Positions 4,543 to 29,393 of a stretch of DNA of 52,285 bases are shown one piece after another. Each line of letters begins with the position of its first letter. Position 1 is the first letter of the stretch. The position numbers and the translations under genes are program-made. This stretch comes from Caldithrix sp. (lineage in GTDB: Bacteria; Spirochaetota; Leptospiria; Turneriellales; Turneriellaceae). The stretch lies in the NCBI GenBank assembly GCA_020722745.1, contig DYKF01000001.1:1-52285 (forward strand), given 5' to 3'. The notes beneath the pieces are model-generated. The model searched no databases. It was given only the letters and a program-made list of their open reading frames with translations, and had not been told where the DNA came from.

Positions 4543-4616
4543 TAGCGACGCAGGGATTCGAACCCCGGACAAACGGATTATGATTCCGTTGCTCTAACCG
4601 GCTGAGCTACGTCGCC
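4543..4616 (-). tRNA. Elongator tRNA-Met (CAT)
   Basis: A full cloverleaf on the minus strand: 7-bp acceptor stem starting GGCGACG, D-arm GCTC/GAGC, anticodon stem ACGGA/TCCGT around loop ATCATAA (anticodon CAT), and T-arm CGGGG/CCCTG with loop TTCGAAT. The start GGCGACGTAGCTCAG closely matches known elongator tRNA-Met. The first pair is G1-U72 and the discriminator is A73. The 3' CCA is not encoded. A CAT anticodon could also belong to a lysidine-modified tRNA-Ile, but the acceptor and D-arm sequence favour Met. Confidence 0.9.
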
Positions 4617-4621
4617 GTATT

Positions 4622-4694
<73 letters not shown>

Positions 4695-4733
4695 ATGTCT
4701 AAGCCACTCTGTTAATTGTCATCATGCCGTCAA

Positions 4734-16892: not shown

Positions 16893-17858
16893 ATGGGCGA
16901 CGAGAAGGACAAAGACAGGGAAGAGGACTTCCCAGCAGACGTACTGGATTTGCCAGAGCCGGATCCTGTATACGACAATGAAGTTACTGCCGGCTTTGTT
17001 CCGTCGCGCGAAAAAGCTCCGTATACGGAATCGAGCATACAGTGGTATCTGGAAGAAATTAACAAAATTCCTCTGTTAACGCGCGACGAGGAAGACTCTC
17101 TCGCGCGCAAAATCGCCGATCATAATGATCAGGACGCAAAAAACAAAATCGTCGTTTCCAATCTCCGCTTTGTCGTACAGGTTGCCAAAAAATACCAGAA
17201 ATACGGGATTGGCCTTCTCGATCTAATCAATGAGGGAAACATGGGTCTCATCAAGGCGGCTGAACGTTTTGACCCCAATCTCGGATATCACTTTATCAGC
17301 TATGCTGTCTGGTGGATTCGGCAGGCCATTATTCTCGCCATCAACCAGAAGGCCTCCATGATCCGCCTGCCCATGAACCGGACTATTGACCTAGCCAGAA
17401 TAGATAAAATCCAGAAAGAACTTGAAGCGCAGCTTGGCCACGAGCCAACGCTCGCACAGGTTGCGGAACGTCTGGAAATGGCAGAAGAAGATGTCCAGTG
17501 GTTAAAACAGATTTCATCGGACTATGTATCTCTGGATGCTCCCCTTTCGGGCGACTCAGAAAATACGCAGATATCCACCGTTCAAGATACCAAGTACGAA
17601 TCGCCGGAAGACACTGTTATGTCTTCGGCTCTTAAAGACGCCATCCATGCTATTCTCCAGGAACTGACCGTCAGCGAACGCAAAATTATAGAGTACCGTT
17701 TTGGACTAAATGGCAAGCCGCGACTTTCGCTCACGCAGGCAGGAAAGAAATTTCAACTGTCGAAGGAGAGGGTACGCCAGATAGAAAAGAAAACCCTTAT
17801 GAAGCTGCGCCAGTATGGCAATCGGCTTGAACTCGATGCATTTTTAAACCAGCAGTGA
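16893..17858 (+). CDS. Sigma-70 family RNA polymerase sigma factor (group 2-like)
   Basis: 321 residues. The acidic N-terminus (1-45) replaces region 1.1. Region 1.2 is at about 46-75 (SIQWYLEEINKIPLLTRDEE). Region 2 includes DLINEGNMGLIKAAERFDP and YAVWWIRQAI (-10 recognition). Region 3 follows at about 170-235, and the region 4.2 helix-turn-helix is SLTQAGKKFQLSKERVRQIE. It is too short and too altered in region 2.4 (WWIRQAIILAI, where E. coli RpoD has WWIRQAITRSI) to call the primary factor with confidence, so an RpoS-like alternative sigma is favoured. AGAGGA lies 11 bases before the ATG. A TTGACC at 16854 has no matching -10. The next gene overlaps its stop. Confidence 0.9.
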   Translation: MGDEKDKDREEDFPADVLDLPEPDPVYDNEVTAGFVPSREKAPYTESSIQWYLEEINKIPLLTRDEEDSLARKIADHNDQDAKNKIVVSNLRFVVQVAKKYQKYGIGLLDLINEGNMGLIKAAERFDPNLGYHFISYAVWWIRQAIILAINQKASMIRLPMNRTIDLARIDKIQKELEAQLGHEPTLAQVAERLEMAEEDVQWLKQISSDYVSLDAPLSGDSENTQISTVQDTKYESPEDTVMSSALKDAIHAILQELTVSERKIIEYRFGLNGKPRLSLTQAGKKFQLSKERVRQIEKKTLMKLRQYGNRLELDAFLNQQ

Positions 17859-18838
17859 AACCGGCAGAACAATATTCAGACACAGGGTTTCCAGGGCGCT
17901 GGGATTCTAAACGATTTCTTTTACTCTTAGCGGTTCCGGCTTTGTTCTTTGCTCTCGGTGGATTGTCTCTCGCCAGCGAAAAACGGATGAAGGATTTTGA
18001 AGCGCGGATAGAAGCCAGACAAAGGGAAATTGAAACTGTGAAACTTTCTGGAGCAGAACCATTTCTGTGGAAACCTCTGCTAAACTGTACGGCAGAAAGC
18101 GCTCCCCAGGAAGGTTGCATACCTGTCACGATTTCCTGGAAAGAAACTGTACAAATTCCAGAGGTAAATGTGTACACACGTTCCATCCCTTCACCAGATT
18201 CCTGTCTCATCTGCCATCGAGCTGAGTCTGGAATTGTAGAATGGACCTTTAAGACCACGGCTCCCGGACCACCGCCGGTGCCAGCCGTGGTTTTACATGG
18301 AGCAGGATTCTTATTCCTCCTTGCCTGGGGCCTGCTGCTCTGGTATCGTTTCAGAGAGGGGGAGATTGTCGTTCTTTCGGCCATTTCTTTTCCGGATGCG
18401 ATAGTTCCCGACGATGCATTGCTGAAAAAACTGTTTCCCCGCTATGGCCATGCCTTTTACAGGGAAAAAGGAAGCGGCTATCTTCGCTGGCTGTCTACGC
18501 GACATGGCTACCGCAACTGGTTTCAAAAAATTGTTGCATCCGGAAAATTTGCCGATATTCTGGAACAGGTCGATATTGGAAAGGCAGGCATGATTTCTGT
18601 TCTTTTGCGACAGCCAAGGAATATGCCCTTACCGGTTCGTTCACTGGAAAAAGGCCGCATGCTCGTGAAGCGGGTACCTCCCGGTTTTTTTCTTCTCCAG
18701 AATTCTCTGGAACCTCTGGTCAGCATGCACCTGGAGCAGCTGGAAGAAGCCGTCTGGAAACGGGCAGACGGAAAAAAAGCAGTATTTAAAACTATACCAA
18801 TAACAAAAAGAATTCGAGAAAGGGAAAAAAATGGCTGA
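17855..18838 (+). CDS. Membrane protein with a single CXXCH motif, unknown function
   Basis: 327 residues from GTG overlapping the sigma factor stop (GTGA). Transmembrane helix 1 is at 21-40, followed by a short coiled coil (43-63) and an extracytoplasmic region with C78, C88 and the motif CLICH at 117-121. Helix 2 is at about 144-164, and a soluble C-terminal domain of about 160 residues follows. CXXCH is the c-type haem attachment motif, and its placement between two membrane segments is compatible with a periplasmic haem; a metal site or disulfides are equally possible. The C-terminal domain has no recognised family. It overlaps topA by 8 bases (ATGGCTGA). Confidence 0.75.
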   Translation: MKPAEQYSDTGFPGRWDSKRFLLLLAVPALFFALGGLSLASEKRMKDFEARIEARQREIETVKLSGAEPFLWKPLLNCTAESAPQEGCIPVTISWKETVQIPEVNVYTRSIPSPDSCLICHRAESGIVEWTFKTTAPGPPPVPAVVLHGAGFLFLLAWGLLLWYRFREGEIVVLSAISFPDAIVPDDALLKKLFPRYGHAFYREKGSGYLRWLSTRHGYRNWFQKIVASGKFADILEQVDIGKAGMISVLLRQPRNMPLPVRSLEKGRMLVKRVPPGFFLLQNSLEPLVSMHLEQLEEAVWKRADGKKAVFKTIPITKRIREREKNG

Positions 18839-23784: not shown

Positions 23785-26664
23785 ATGAATCTATATAAAA
23801 AAATATTACTCTTTCTTTTCGCAGTCGTTCTGTTGTATGCTCAGGCATTTTCTGCAAGGCTTACCTTTCGGGCTGCCATGTCTGCCTTTAACGAAAAAGA
23901 TTATTATACGGCAAGACTGTTATTGCAGGAGATTGTTCACAAGGATCCTCTCGGAGAATTTGGAGACGATTCTGCCTATCATATCGGGTTGACCTATTTT
24001 TACGAAGGCAAATACCCTGCTGCCATTTTTGAATTGAATCTGCTTGGCAGGGATTATCCGGATTCTCCTTTTTCTCCCAATGCGGAGTTTTATATTGCAG
24101 AATCGCATTATTACAGCGGAAAGCTTCCGCAGGCATTGCAGATGCATCACAATTTTGTGCGAGAATATCCAGAGCATGCGCTTGCTCCCCGTGCTTTATA
24201 TTCGAGCGGATATATCTATCTGGAGCAAAAAAAATATGATATGGCAGCAGCCGATTTTGAAAGAGCCATTCGGGAATACCCCTCTGCTGAAAATATTGCT
24301 TCTTTGCGCCTGCAGCTTGGTATAGCATGGTATAATCTAAAGGATTACGCAAGAGCCAAAAAAGAATTTGAAATTCTGATAGAAAAAGCCGATAAAGCCA
24401 TGCTTTCGGACGCTGCCTCTTTCTGGTTTGGCCGCTGCGAATACGCAGAGGGAAATTATTCTGACGCTAAAAATCGATTTGCCGATTTAGCGGAGACGTA
24501 CCCAGATTCTGTGCATGCCCCCGAAGCGCTGTACTTTGCCGCTTTAAGCGCTTCCCGGATCAACGATTCTGCCGCATCTCTGCAATATCTTCGGCGCATT
24601 GAAAACGATTATCCAGATTATCCTCAACGCAGGGAAGTTTATTTCCGGATTGGACAGATTGAATATGCAGAGAATCAGCCATCGGAAGCAGAGACAGCAT
24701 TGAGGAAGGTTTTTTCGGCATCGGGGGAAGCATCTGTCATCCCGCCCGCTGCAGATTTACTGGCGGAAATTCTGGCAAAACAAAACAGGGCAGCAGAGGT
24801 TCTCGAGCTGTACGATCAGGTGTTGAAGGATCAAAAAGATAACCGGGAAAAGCAGGTAATGCTTTCCAAAAAAGCTTCTCTGCTATATAATTTGAAACGC
24901 TACGAAGAATCAGCAAAAGTGTACGAGACCGCACTTTCCCAGACGAAAGCCGGAGATTCTGACGAAGCCGAGCTCACCTATCTACATGCACAGTCCCTGT
25001 ATCGTTCCGGATTGACGGACAAGGCAAAGCAGAGCTTAAACCAGGTGCATAAAAAATTTCCATCATCGTCTTTTCGCGCTGATGCCTATTATCTCGCCGG
25101 CGAGATAGATTATTATGCATCGGATTTTGATTCCGCTCTCCAGAATTACCAGAAAGTGATTCGTTTTTATCCCACGCATGCGCGCTCCTTTGAAGCCGCT
25201 ATGGGAATAGGCTGGACCTATTTTGAGATGAAGCAATATGCTCGTTCCGCAGATCAGTTCCGGAGTCTCTTTAAGTCTGCCAACACGGACGCACGTACCA
25301 TACAGGTTCGCATGGCCCTAGCATCGGCAGAGTACAATCTGCAGAGATTTGACAAAGCCATTGCAGAATATAAAGCCGTGATTCAGCAAAAGAAACAGTT
25401 TCCGGAACAGGCTCAGGAAGCGGGTTTTCAGCTCGCATGGATTGATTATAGAAACCGCAATTACGACAAGTCCCTTGCAGGGTTTATGCAGTACAGACAT
25501 GATTTTCCCGAAGGAAAGCGCATCCAGGAAGCCCGATATTTTCAGGCATGGTCTCATTACAGACTGGGAGAGACAGAAGCAGCGAGATCTCTCCTTCAGG
25601 CAATTGCAGATGATTCCACGGCAAACGGCATCTTCCACGCCAGAGCTGTAATGGATATCGCCCGCATGGATTCCGGAGCGAAAAAATTTGAAAATGCCGC
25701 TGCTTCCTCAGTCCGTTATCTTTCCCTGTATCCCCAGGGAGACGACGCAGAAGAAGCGCACTTTATTCTGGCTGGTTCGTATATAGAGATGAACCGCATG
25801 GAAGAAGCATACAGCGTATATGAACAATTAACTGCCAGCCGTCCTGGTTCGTCTTATCGGATTGAGATTCTCCGCGAACTCTCCGATGCTTACCGGCGCC
25901 AAAAACAATATGAGAAAGCTTCGGAAATATTGAAACAAATGGAAGGCATCGTGCCGGATACGGGACGCGGAGAACTGGAGCTTTCCCGTGCTTCCATGCT
26001 TGCCGAAAAGGGAGATATTGCCGCAGCAACGGGAATATATCGCAATATGCTGGCGTCTGGCAAAAAAAGCGATGCCGCATGGAAAGGTGAGGCGATCCTT
26101 CAGTATCTTCAATTGTTGCTCCTGACCAGGGATTTTGCCTCTGCTATTTCCGTTACCGAAGAATATAAAAACGCAGTAGAGGATGAGTATGTGAAGCAAC
26201 AGGTGCAGCTATTTCGAGGAAGAGCACTCACAGAAACAGGCGACTATAAAGCCGCCATTGAAACCCTACTCCCACTTCGTTCCAATCCGTCTTTTTCAGC
26301 GGAAGCCAGGTTTTCCATTGCGGCTACTTATGCAGGACTGGGCAACCGGGACCAGGCTCTCGATTATTACCTCCAGGTGGCAGCAGCAGAACATCCACTG
26401 CAAAAAGATGCCATGTTAAAAACCGGAGAAATTTATCTGGAAATGGAAGAATACGAAAAAGCGCAGAGAGAATTTGCACGCCTTATATACACAGCTTCTG
26501 ACAGGAGTGATCTGTACGAGAAGGCAATCTATTATTCGGCCTATACGTTCTATAAACTTAAAAGGACTTCGGATGCAGACAGAATGAAAAAAAAGCTGAA
26601 AACAGAGTTTCCACAGAGTCTTTTTATAAAAAAAATCGAAGAAATCGAAACAAATGAAAATTAA
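23785..26664 (+). CDS. Secreted/periplasmic TPR-repeat protein, unknown function
   Basis: 959 residues. A signal sequence (MNLYKKILLFLFAVVLLYAQAFSA) is followed almost wholly by tetratricopeptide repeats; the pattern of A/G at small positions with YxxA and EyPdS-type ends recurs about every 34-37 residues, roughly 20 to 25 units. Early repeats (YYTARLLLQEIVHKDP, YPDSPFSPNAEFYIAES) resemble those of BamD and CpoB, envelope proteins that scaffold outer-membrane assembly or the Tol system. There is no lipobox. GAGGA precedes the ATG. It lies 35 bases after hslU and 16 before a small secreted protein, at the head of a four-gene envelope cluster. Confidence 0.88.
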   Translation: MNLYKKILLFLFAVVLLYAQAFSARLTFRAAMSAFNEKDYYTARLLLQEIVHKDPLGEFGDDSAYHIGLTYFYEGKYPAAIFELNLLGRDYPDSPFSPNAEFYIAESHYYSGKLPQALQMHHNFVREYPEHALAPRALYSSGYIYLEQKKYDMAAADFERAIREYPSAENIASLRLQLGIAWYNLKDYARAKKEFEILIEKADKAMLSDAASFWFGRCEYAEGNYSDAKNRFADLAETYPDSVHAPEALYFAALSASRINDSAASLQYLRRIENDYPDYPQRREVYFRIGQIEYAENQPSEAETALRKVFSASGEASVIPPAADLLAEILAKQNRAAEVLELYDQVLKDQKDNREKQVMLSKKASLLYNLKRYEESAKVYETALSQTKAGDSDEAELTYLHAQSLYRSGLTDKAKQSLNQVHKKFPSSSFRADAYYLAGEIDYYASDFDSALQNYQKVIRFYPTHARSFEAAMGIGWTYFEMKQYARSADQFRSLFKSANTDARTIQVRMALASAEYNLQRFDKAIAEYKAVIQQKKQFPEQAQEAGFQLAWIDYRNRNYDKSLAGFMQYRHDFPEGKRIQEARYFQAWSHYRLGETEAARSLLQAIADDSTANGIFHARAVMDIARMDSGAKKFENAAASSVRYLSLYPQGDDAEEAHFILAGSYIEMNRMEEAYSVYEQLTASRPGSSYRIEILRELSDAYRRQKQYEKASEILKQMEGIVPDTGRGELELSRASMLAEKGDIAAATGIYRNMLASGKKSDAAWKGEAILQYLQLLLLTRDFASAISVTEEYKNAVEDEYVKQQVQLFRGRALTETGDYKAAIETLLPLRSNPSFSAEARFSIAATYAGLGNRDQALDYYLQVAAAEHPLQKDAMLKTGEIYLEMEEYEKAQREFARLIYTASDRSDLYEKAIYYSAYTFYKLKRTSDADRMKKKLKTEFPQSLFIKKIEEIETNEN

Positions 26665-26680
26665 TCCGGTATTATAATAT

Positions 26681-27295
26681 GTGAAACATATAATAATACT
26701 GCTAATTTCTCTGCCCCTTGCGGCAGCAGATATCCTTTCTGTCATACCTGATTCGGAGACGCTGACAGTCTCCGAGCCGGGCAGTTATACCGTATACAGT
26801 TCGGGTGGCTTTGCCAGTTTTAACAGAATCCCTCCAAATCTGTCGCTCAATCCGGCGGGGGATTACGTTTTGCTGAAGCGGGACGGCTCTCCCGTAGCTT
26901 TTATCTGTTACGGCTCTTTTTCCGACTTGTCTAAACTTTCTTCTGCGAGAGAAGCAAATCTCTGGAGTGGAGATTGTGTGACCGAGATGCCCGCAAGTGG
27001 ATTTGAGCTCGTTTTGCGAAACAGCCGAATCAACTTTTTTCCGCACTCGGCGGACGATTACTTCTGGAGAGGGGAAGAAGATCCAGAGTCGGAAAATTCT
27101 GCCGCGCAGAAGGTCTACACGCGATCGAGTTTACAGAAGGCTAACCTTCAGGCTTCACGCTATGTCGTAACTGATAAATACGGGCGTATTCTTGGGCAAT
27201 CCATGTCTCCAGAAGAAGTTCTCCTTTTAAGGCCCGGATTATATTTTATTCATCGAGAGAATGGTCAAATTCTGCTCTTCTGGAGTATGCCATGA
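26681..27295 (+). CDS. Small secreted protein with internal repeats, unknown function
   Basis: 204 residues from a GTG start, with a short signal peptide (MKHIIILLISLPLAAA). Three similar beta-type segments can be seen at about 33-47 (PGSYTVYSSGGFASF), 58-74 (PAGDYVLLKRDGSPVAF) and 185-200 (PGLYFIHRENGQILLF), of the pattern P-G-x-Y, two to six residues, G, then hydrophobics ending in F. This suggests a repeated beta-hairpin or small sandwich fold. There is no convincing Shine-Dalgarno. A perfect TATAAT at 26673-26678 lies just before the start but has no -35. The stop overlaps the next start in ATGA. Confidence 0.65.
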   Translation: MKHIIILLISLPLAAADILSVIPDSETLTVSEPGSYTVYSSGGFASFNRIPPNLSLNPAGDYVLLKRDGSPVAFICYGSFSDLSKLSSAREANLWSGDCVTEMPASGFELVLRNSRINFFPHSADDYFWRGEEDPESENSAAQKVYTRSSLQKANLQASRYVVTDKYGRILGQSMSPEEVLLLRPGLYFIHRENGQILLFWSMP

Positions 27296-28224
27296 AAAAT
27301 GCTATGCTTCTCATCATTGTATTCATTTCGGCAAGCCATGCGATAGCACAAGAGCTTGTGCGCGATTCCCTGAGAGTCTACTCAAACGCTCCCTGGAAAG
27401 GGCCCGGTGTTTCAGAAAAAATAATCGAAAGTCACTACGCGCTGCCATGGCAATGGAATACGCTTGTTCCGGGAGGGTATGTTCAATTTTCGGAGGAAAG
27501 TTATGGAAGTCTCTACGAATCCTACGCGCTACGATTCGCTCCTGCATTGACCTGGAAACGATACGAGTTCTTTCCTGGCGTCTCCTACCAGGCGACAGAG
27601 CTTCCAGAGATTGTCTACAACAGAACGGATCTATCCGCATGGATTGGCTTTGGCTACCACGATGAGAGGGCCAGCGCACGTATTTTCTGGAACTCGCTGG
27701 GAAGCTCCGAAATTCTGTTTTGGGCCAGCATTCCGGGAACCCCATTTTTCCTATCTTCTCAAATTATGTACTCTGAGGATACACGCATTCGATTTTCTGC
27801 CTGTTACCAGCATCCGCTTGGTTTTTACGCGGGGATCATCTCTTTTCCAGTCGATGCTGGCATTGGCTTTAGCGGCGGTTATCGACTATCCGGTAGAGTA
27901 TCTGCCGGGGTAGAATATCTTTTGCCGGCAGATTCCACTGGCTATGCAGGGCTTGAACTTACCTATATCTTTTACAGACCAAAGATGATCTCTGCAGAAT
28001 CCGTTCCTGTCAAATCCGATCCTGCAACCAATGCCGTGAAGCCGGAGAAAGAAAAACCGGTACGAAAAAAACTGCCCGCGACTGTTCCCGATTTTTCGAT
28101 ATTAGTGCGGTGGGGGCTGCCTCCTGCCGAGGCCTGGAAACTTCAGCAGACGCGCGATGTTTGTACGCTCTCTGAGTATTCTCAAAAGATTCTAACAGCG
28201 AGGAACTGGAAATGCTATCGATAG
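27292..28224 (+). CDS. Predicted outer-membrane beta-barrel-like protein with C-terminal domain
   Basis: 310 residues. A signal peptide (MKNAMLLIIVFISASHAIAQ) is followed by about ten alternating hydrophobic, aromatic-ended strands (about 45-232; for example SAWIGFGYHDE, RIRFSACYQHPLGFYAG, VSAGVEYLLPA, AGLELTYIFY), the look of a small beta-barrel. A Pro/Lys-rich linker (about 236-266) leads to a C-terminal helical piece (FSILVRWGLPPAEAWKLQQ) with two cysteines (near residues 291 and 308) that could form a disulfide. I recognise no family. It overlaps both neighbours (ATGA upstream, 13 bases downstream), so the cluster is likely translated as a unit. Confidence 0.7.
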   Translation: MKNAMLLIIVFISASHAIAQELVRDSLRVYSNAPWKGPGVSEKIIESHYALPWQWNTLVPGGYVQFSEESYGSLYESYALRFAPALTWKRYEFFPGVSYQATELPEIVYNRTDLSAWIGFGYHDERASARIFWNSLGSSEILFWASIPGTPFFLSSQIMYSEDTRIRFSACYQHPLGFYAGIISFPVDAGIGFSGGYRLSGRVSAGVEYLLPADSTGYAGLELTYIFYRPKMISAESVPVKSDPATNAVKPEKEKPVRKKLPATVPDFSILVRWGLPPAEAWKLQQTRDVCTLSEYSQKILTARNWKCYR

Positions 28225-29393
28225 GATTAAGATTTGCTTTTCTACTAATTATTATCTTTCCGCTTTGTTCTCTGGAATGGGAGAGCAGCGGGGGCAGTTA
28301 TGCCGAAAGGTTCTGGCACTGGCATTCTGTGCACGAAACGGCAAACAATTATGAGTTCTTAGCAGGCAGCGGCATGTCTGGCGATGAAGTACTCGCAGGC
28401 GGAAATTTCCTGCTCTCGTCAAACTTGTATTCTTTTGGCTCCGGCAATCTCCAGGAAAGTCCCCTGGGCGGATTTTTTTTATCGCAGCGTGCCTACCGTG
28501 GAAACGCGGCAGGCTGGCCATGGGAAGCTCCTGTTGGAATTCGTGCTTCTATTGGCAGCTCCATTTTTAATATAGAGGGATTTCGATACGGTGCGCAGAC
28601 CCCGCAGGGCTGGCAGGAATCTTCGCTGCTTTCAGGAAAATGGAAAACCAGATATGTTGGAGCTTCTGTCCACTGGCTCATGGACCAGGATGGGAGAGGA
28701 ATTCCAGCTGCAGATTTGCAATGGTCTCAAAATCAATTCTTCGCAAAATTGTTATTTCTCAATACAAAGAATTATGAGGAAAGTATTTATCTCAAAAGTT
28801 TTGATCACTGGATTTCCGTGTATCACTTTAATTACGAGCAAAAATATCCTTTGTCTGCTCAAATTTATAAAGACTTTTCTCGCTATTCAGAAATTCGCGT
28901 TGTTAAATCGACTGATTATCGTTTTGAGTATGCAGACAGAGACGGGCAGGGAAGAATCAAAACGAGTGGTGCCAGCCATGCGTTTCGATGGTATGGAATC
29001 TATCGCGAGGATGGCTTTCTTTTTCCCGGCGCTGGTATTTCTCTCGATCCATTGCCGCTCTTTGTGCATGCGTACTTTCCCCAAAATGAAAACATGTTTT
29101 CAGGAAGCCTGGGCGTTTCTCCAGTGCGGGATATAAAAATTGCATTGTCTTTTCAACGAAACACGACGGGGCTTTATTATCCCATCGACCCGTTATTTTT
29201 TCCGCAGGATTTTTCCTGGGAAGATTATTTTGGCGAGCAGGAATTATGGAGCCCCGAAGATTCCTCGGCTTTTCAATTGTACTGGAAACATGGCAGCTTT
29301 CAGGGATATTTTATTGGCCAGAGAGTCTGGAAATATTCCTCTAAACCATACCGCGTTGCACTGCGCTTTTCCTGGCAGGCCATGCTACATTGA
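28212..29393 (+). CDS. Predicted outer-membrane beta-barrel-like protein
   Basis: 393 residues. The signal peptide is MLSIGLRFAFLLIIIFPLCS. The mature protein consists of short alternating strands rich in Trp, Tyr and Phe (LQWSQNQFFAKLLFLN, HWISVYHFNYEQ, SHAFRWYGIYRE, YRVALRFSWQAM), consistent with an outer-membrane barrel, although the last residue is His and not the usual Phe or Trp. Composition (Gly-Ser-Gly loops, aromatic girdles) is like that of the preceding gene, so the two may be partners. Its last three codons overlap the end of comEC on the opposite strand. Confidence 0.68.
   Translation: MLSIGLRFAFLLIIIFPLCSLEWESSGGSYAERFWHWHSVHETANNYEFLAGSGMSGDEVLAGGNFLLSSNLYSFGSGNLQESPLGGFFLSQRAYRGNAAGWPWEAPVGIRASIGSSIFNIEGFRYGAQTPQGWQESSLLSGKWKTRYVGASVHWLMDQDGRGIPAADLQWSQNQFFAKLLFLNTKNYEESIYLKSFDHWISVYHFNYEQKYPLSAQIYKDFSRYSEIRVVKSTDYRFEYADRDGQGRIKTSGASHAFRWYGIYREDGFLFPGAGISLDPLPLFVHAYFPQNENMFSGSLGVSPVRDIKIALSFQRNTTGLYYPIDPLFFPQDFSWEDYFGEQELWSPEDSSAFQLYWKHGSFQGYFIGQRVWKYSSKPYRVALRFSWQAMLH

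Follow-up and report, generated by a model that had tools for sequence, protein, structure and literature searches.

Do four tightly packed genes for exported proteins in a spirochaete genome encode one envelope machine, or do they merely lie side by side? The genes, here called P1 to P4, are located on contig DYKF01000001.1 of Caldithrix sp. (assembly GCA_020722745.1, Turneriellaceae according to GTDB; genome G000), within a window (the whole stretch of DNA analyzed) of 52,285 nucleotides whose + strand carries topA, xerC, hslV, hslU, P1, P2, P3, and P4 in that order (Table 1). A preliminary description had proposed that P1, a 959-residue secreted tetratricopeptide repeat (TPR) protein, serves as the scaffold of a surface or assembly machine together with a small repeat-containing secreted protein (P2) and two beta-barrel-like proteins (P3 and P4). 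Comparison across the order shows instead that P2, P3, and P4 constitute an order-specific module that is separate from a conserved hslV-hslU-P1 block. The close packing of the four genes was confirmed (a 16-base gap between P1 and P2, and overlaps of 4 bases for P2/P3 and 13 bases for P3/P4), as was a hydrophobic, signal-peptide-like N-terminus on each product, judged by eye. All four are real genes under purifying selection, as the ratios of nonsynonymous to synonymous substitution rates relative to genus-mate G001 were 0.10 (P1), 0.13 (P2), 0.22 (P3), and 0.23 (P4). Ratios for comparison genes were 0.06 (hslU), 0.13 (comEC), and 0.05 (ftsZ), and P3 and P4 were the fastest evolving among the ten genes compared. 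A promoter scan yielded 11 sites versus 11.6 ± 3.1 in shuffled sequences, and hence no claim is made regarding an operon.

Conservation was assessed in 247 Spirochaetota genomes, 18 of which (G000 to G017) belong to the window's order, which we infer to be Turneriellales, with family f1 corresponding to Turneriellaceae (class Leptospiria; names from PMC10408702). P4 was the most widely kept of the module proteins (profile matches in 16/18 order genomes), followed by P3 (14/18), and P2 was found in six. P3 and P4 were adjacent and in the same gene order in all 13 genomes having both, and P2 directly preceded P3 wherever it occurred (6/6). Within these Spirochaetota genomes, strong matches to the three proteins were confined to this order; weak matches elsewhere (A2: G069 and G111; A5: G060 and G184; A6: G065; E 0.0015 to 0.0074, several with internal stops) were treated as chance and left out of the counts. 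The module adjoins comEC-ftsZ-ftsA in 5 of the 13 genomes with P3 and P4 (G000, G001, G003, G004, and G006), and is found amid other genes in g5, f2, f3, and f4, yet stays together. The G008 contig ends inside P3. Outside f1, G013 and G015 possess P3 and P4, and G017 has P4 alone. In G016, the gene beside P4 is a divergent P3-like barrel gene that lacks the C-terminal domain (P3 profile E 9e-7). The open reading frame (ORF) in the P3 place in G014 resembles its G016 counterpart (23% identity, E 4e-12), is beyond the reach of the P3 profile, and also lacks this domain. Based on this partial reduction in members outside f1, P4 is the core of the module, P3 comes next, and P2 is the most dispensable. 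No significant Pfam or NCBIfam match was obtained for P2, P3, or P4 (NCBIfam searches with P3 and P4 members gave stray single-member matches only), and literature searches of accessible, non-subscription papers returned no report of the cluster. The conserved neighborhood is therefore undescribed in these sources, and its proteins fall in no known family, as the preliminary description had supposed.

P1 has a different genomic context. Relatives at 1e-20 or better were present in 16 of the 17 order genomes searched (G002, 54% complete, was left out), counting fragments in G012 and G013, and P1 was situated directly behind hslU in 14/14 genomes with readable upstream DNA; outside this count are G012, whose contig begins within P1, and G013, where a fragment only is available. 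The hslV-hslU-TPR block is thus conserved across the order. Other genera carry other genes downstream of P1, with P2 to P4 elsewhere in those genomes. For example, the product encoded downstream of P1 in genus g5 starts with MRILISNDDGL and is putatively SurE-like. Of the 13 genomes carrying both P3 and P4, only two (G000 and G001, both from the window's genus) have P1 next to the module, and P1 and the module are unlinked in most order genomes. On this adjacency count, a single four-gene unit was rejected. A four-part surface or assembly machine scaffolded by P1 is accordingly improbable, although the genes are co-oriented, the P1-P2 gap is just 16 bases, the layout in G001 is identical, and the + strand has no listed terminator-like site in the P1-P2 interval. 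The preliminary description had named homologues without their neighbors as the finding that would speak for a chance neighborhood. Because P1 lies behind hslU in other genera, with the barrel genes elsewhere, that finding was made for P1, and the opposite for P2-P3-P4; the idea of a cluster hence stands for the latter three genes and is unsupported for P1, as is the TPR-scaffolded machine.

The repeats of P1 themselves clearly exceeded the Pfam cut-offs (TPR_6, 170.9 bits versus a cut-off of 26.3), in agreement with the preliminary description, and gave the highest scores with YbgF-type and YfiO-type TPR models. P1 also exceeded the cut-offs of TIGR02795 (240.4 of 90.1) and TIGR03302 (146.3 of 81.4), but via twelve and eight separate matching stretches, respectively. 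It scored below the cut-offs of full-length CpoB (NF008068, 74.6 of 383), full-length BamD (NF008119, 10.5 of 363), the type IX secretion protein PorW/SprE (NF052312, 125.5 of 250 bits), and the spirochaete flagellar collar protein FlcA (NF047371, 54 of 300 bits), and has no cysteine in its N-terminal 28 residues that could serve as a lipoprotein cysteine. The class-level relative G018 encodes a probable ortholog of P1, full-length and reciprocal in searches, with 21-23% identity. In this genome (L033, G018:C1:1058000-1077000), the gene is near MotA/ExbB, ExbD, TonB-C, and POTRA-Omp85 genes, a setting that fits an envelope role. It also lies beside a gene for a 572-aa protein without a Pfam match. 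Overall, P1 is probably an hslU-linked periplasmic scaffold conserved across the order, and not part of the barrel module.

Structure prediction supports the earlier suggestion of two adjacent beta-barrel-like proteins, although the alignments behind the models were thin (16 rows for P4 and 14 for P3). The AlphaFold2 model of P4 comprises 24 strands, with a mean predicted local distance difference test (pLDDT) score of 72 and a predicted template modeling (pTM) score of 0.69. P4 is accordingly predicted to consist of a signal peptide and a closed outer-membrane barrel filling the mature protein. The best structural match (Foldseek, VIA-align) was the PapC usher pore (Z 16.5, 306 aligned, 5.4 Å), followed by FimD (16.0), Wzi (15.0), AlgE (14.4), and Occ porins (about 14), and solely barrel proteins were among the matches listed. 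A terminal phenylalanine, as in a C-terminal beta-signal, is present in 12 of the 16 P4 members, but not in the P4 of the window. Searching PDB sequences with the profiles of P2, P3, and P4 yielded nothing useful. A role for P4 as an LptD replacement is conceivable but unsupported; the LptD model PF04453 matched 0/18 order genomes, but the same search matched only 2 of 14 control genomes.

Polysaccharide export systems that combine a TPR protein with a barrel are known, and the matches of P4 to AlgE and Wzi, the TPR gene adjoining the barrel genes in the window, and a polysaccharide deacetylase gene close to P3-P4 in four genomes of genus g5 could together indicate exopolysaccharide export of the PgaA, PelB, or AlgK-AlgE kind, whereby the TPR protein and barrel pass the polymer and the deacetylase modifies it. 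However, barrel-to-barrel matches are unspecific, the deacetylase is beside the module in 4/18 genomes only, and in other genera P1 and the barrel genes lie apart. Furthermore, no conserved synthase-dependent locus combining a TPR protein, a barrel, and a synthase was found, and no polymer synthase stood out among the ORFs of the mapped loci, of which only a minority was scanned for families. We therefore regard exopolysaccharide export as very improbable.

P3 is predicted, with low confidence, to be a second outer-membrane barrel. Its model has about 12-13 strands over residues 24-210, followed by a linker (211-264) and three C-terminal helices (268-303). Structural matches of the barrel include 12- and 14-strand proteins: PcoB (Z 13.9, 166 aligned, 3.6 Å), KdgM (13.1), NanC (13.0), and FadL (12.3, 186 aligned). 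None of the 14 P3 members matched any Pfam family at E 0.1, including FadL Toluene_X (PF03349) and the OmpA-like domain, and PF03349 had no match in G000. The C-terminal domain was modeled with higher confidence (pLDDT about 80-92), and all 13 members possessing it share a C-x16-C motif, with the cysteines exactly 17 positions apart. The best match of this domain among PDB sequences was a designed repeat protein, over a short motif only.

The strongest rival explanation is a cell-wall module, wherein P3 acts in an OmpA-like manner, with its C-terminus at peptidoglycan or a wall enzyme, and P4 completes a site coupled to wall remodeling and division. Genes around the module point in this direction. 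Each of the five order members outside f1 (G013 to G017) has, as the convergent neighbor of P4, a gene of ~310 codons for an M23 (LytM-type) peptidase. This peptidase retains the HxxxD and HxH residues and is present in 16/18 order genomes. Within f1, the P2-P4 module abuts comEC-ftsZ-ftsA in the five genomes named above, and in four f1 genomes of genus g5 (G005, G008, G011, and G012) a polysaccharide deacetylase gene is located upstream, with one gene between. The intervening gene is about 251 codons long and has no Pfam match (scanned in L061). Nonetheless, the M23 gene is unlinked to the module in f1, the neighbors vary between genera, and core genes can adjoin without sharing a task. An OmpA-type C-terminal peptidoglycan-binding domain was also not found in P3 (0 families, 14 members), although a wall-binding domain of a different fold is possible. 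On balance, we consider a wall-linked role unlikely.

P2 is small and has two cysteines (C76 and C99) that are conserved in 5/5 aligned members. Its supposed internal repeats were not confirmed: the best internal alignment (30.0 versus 26.2 ± 4.6 in shuffles) was matched or exceeded by 33 of 200 shuffles, and no DNA tandem repeats were detected within the gene. Similarity between the profiles of P2 and the P3 C-terminal domain was rejected (hhalign probability 0.2%).

PorV, a FadL-like barrel, has a role in type IX secretion, and a further alternative is that the module partners an SprA-like, type IX-related translocon, with P2 as client or accessory and P3 in place of PorV. G000 encodes a 1,968-aa protein that matches the SprA model (5e-24, 82 bits), albeit below the cut-off of 200. 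P2 occurs only in order genomes with an SprA-like protein (6/6; Fisher 0.011, uncorrected for kinship), and its C-terminus, on visual inspection, is similar to a type A sorting tail. Conversely, P2 had no match to sorting-tail models, P1 falls under the PorW/SprE cut-off, the SprA-like gene is unlinked to the module, genus g5 has P3-P4 without an SprA-like protein, and SprA-like matches occur in 76/247 genomes, the majority of which lack P3 and P4. Such a partnership is thus the least probable of the explanations weighed here. The SprA-like gene of G000 (L176:12627-18530, G000:C113) contains two matching stretches (82 and 48 bits) and its product has no Pfam match. Across Spirochaetota, no such match exceeds the cut-off, and many fall within open frames of 1,850-2,050 aa. 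A 2016 survey reports type IX secretion systems from Bacteroidetes only (PMC4793230).

Table 1. Coordinates of P1 to P4, their flanking genes, and wall-related or deacetylase genes near the module in other order genomes.
Feature	Position	Strand	Basis
P1, exported TPR protein, 959 aa	23785..26664	+	ORF, Pfam TPR match, hslU linkage, order-wide conservation
P2, exported protein, 204 aa, GTG start, conserved C76 and C99	26681..27295	+	ORF, profile search, neighbor maps
P3, exported protein, 310 aa: predicted barrel ~24-210, then a linker of low confidence (211-264) and a helical C-terminal domain (266-305)	27292..28224	+	
P3 C-terminal domain, C-x16-C (C291, C308), modeled three helices	28060..28221	+	Model and alignment
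P4, exported protein, 393 aa, predicted 24-strand large outer-membrane barrel	28212..29393	+	Model and profile search
hslV and hslU, conserved neighbors upstream of P1	21872..23749	+	Context
comEC-like gene, ftsZ, ftsA, convergent to P2-P4	29385..33695	-	Context
M23 peptidase genes beside P4	L066:10871-11806, L109:3202-4134, L110:7775-8707, L111:3630-4553, L112:5329-6255		
Polysaccharide deacetylase loci, genus g5	L061:5946-8182, L113:101-2154, L062, L067		

Elsewhere in the window, two tRNA-Met genes (CAT anticodon) are situated side by side, four bases apart (4543-4695), and a 327-aa ORF without a Pfam or NCBIfam match lies between a sigma-factor gene and topA (17855-18838). Weak relatives of this ORF (21-23% identity) occupy the corresponding position in L022 and L026.

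Taken together, the reading we favor, and hold tentatively, is that P2-P3-P4 represent a lineage-specific outer-membrane channel module, with P1 as an independent neighbor. All four proteins would be exported via their signal peptides (assigned by eye), after which P4 is predicted to fold as a large outer-membrane barrel pore and P3, with low confidence, as a smaller barrel beside it, whose linker would extend the C-terminal helical domain into the periplasm. The invariant cysteine pair of P3 probably forms a disulfide that staples this domain, which may dock a periplasmic partner, namely P2 where present, or else the cell-wall layer or its enzymes. Docking could allow barrel cargo to be handed on, or keep the pores near the wall. 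P1 would be an envelope TPR scaffold, conserved with hslVU, whose position next to the module arose in this genus; the two may have nothing but a transcript in common.

Several observations weigh against a channel module of this kind. The P4 encoded in the window ends in histidine, without the terminal phenylalanine, and the lag-2 hydropathy signal was weak (mean z of 0.57 for P4 and 0.85 for P3) in a test uncalibrated against known porins. The P3 model as a whole has a mean pLDDT of 59 and a pTM of 0.44, making strand number and barrel closure uncertain. P2 has no match in 12/18 order genomes. Moreover, as the C-terminal domain is absent in G016 and G014, and P4 stands alone in G017, P4 can do without docking. 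A more far-reaching proposal, which we offer as speculation with little chance of proving correct, is that P2-P3-P4 and the order-wide M23 peptidase, perhaps with P1, form an undescribed trans-envelope machine of Turneriellales, in which a two-barrel complex with a disulfide-stapled periplasmic arm senses or recruits wall enzymes or cargo and couples the pore to wall growth.

Outer-membrane proteins have received little attention in relatives of Turneriella, and a literature search found no study of them. The P2, P3, and P4 families lack a Pfam model, and a barrel with a helical periplasmic arm appears to be a recurring design, built in Treponema from other sequence families. Turneriella parva, for which a type strain exists, is described as free-living (PMC3746428), and tests of localization and of binding partners are therefore feasible. 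The locus also illustrates, as a caution, that four genes neatly in a row within a single genus may belong to two separate conserved blocks.

Comparison with known systems places P1, P3, and P4 near, though outside, established groups. P1 resembles the TPR proteins CpoB/YbgF and BamD in its top-scoring repeat models and in the ExbB, ExbD, TonB, and BamA-type genes near the G018 ortholog, but differs in its length of 959 aa, its lack of a lipobox cysteine, and its failure to match the full-length models. P4 shares a similar strand number (24) with the PapC and FimD ushers, its best structural matches. Nonetheless, it is a bare 393-residue barrel, modeled without a plug or periplasmic domains, none of the 16 members matched the usher family, and no pilus chaperone or subunit family was found in P2 or P3. 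Structurally, the P3 barrel comes closest to the 12-strand channels PcoB, KdgM, and NanC (Z 13 to 13.9), but identity is only 7-10%, no sequence family is matched, and the helical extension of P3 is outside the aligned range. The closest parallel in design is with the FadL-like proteins TP0548, TP0859, and TP0865 of Treponema pallidum, three barrels modeled with three-helix, presumptively periplasmic C-terminal domains that are proposed to pass cargo to periplasmic carriers, and for which some genes are co-transcribed (PMC8407342). As predicted for P3, a spirochaete barrel is followed by a linker and a three-helix, presumed periplasmic C-terminus, and P3 has FadL as one of its structural matches. 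The low-confidence model of P3 shows fewer strands than FadL (14 strands and a hatch) and no N-terminal hatch; P3 also has a longer linker and is encoded beside a second, larger barrel. The C-terminus of the T. pallidum proteins is reported to contain a TPR motif (PMC8407342), whereas that of P3 carries the invariant C-x16-C. As P3 does not detectably belong to the FadL sequence family, the resemblance is one of design and not of membership.

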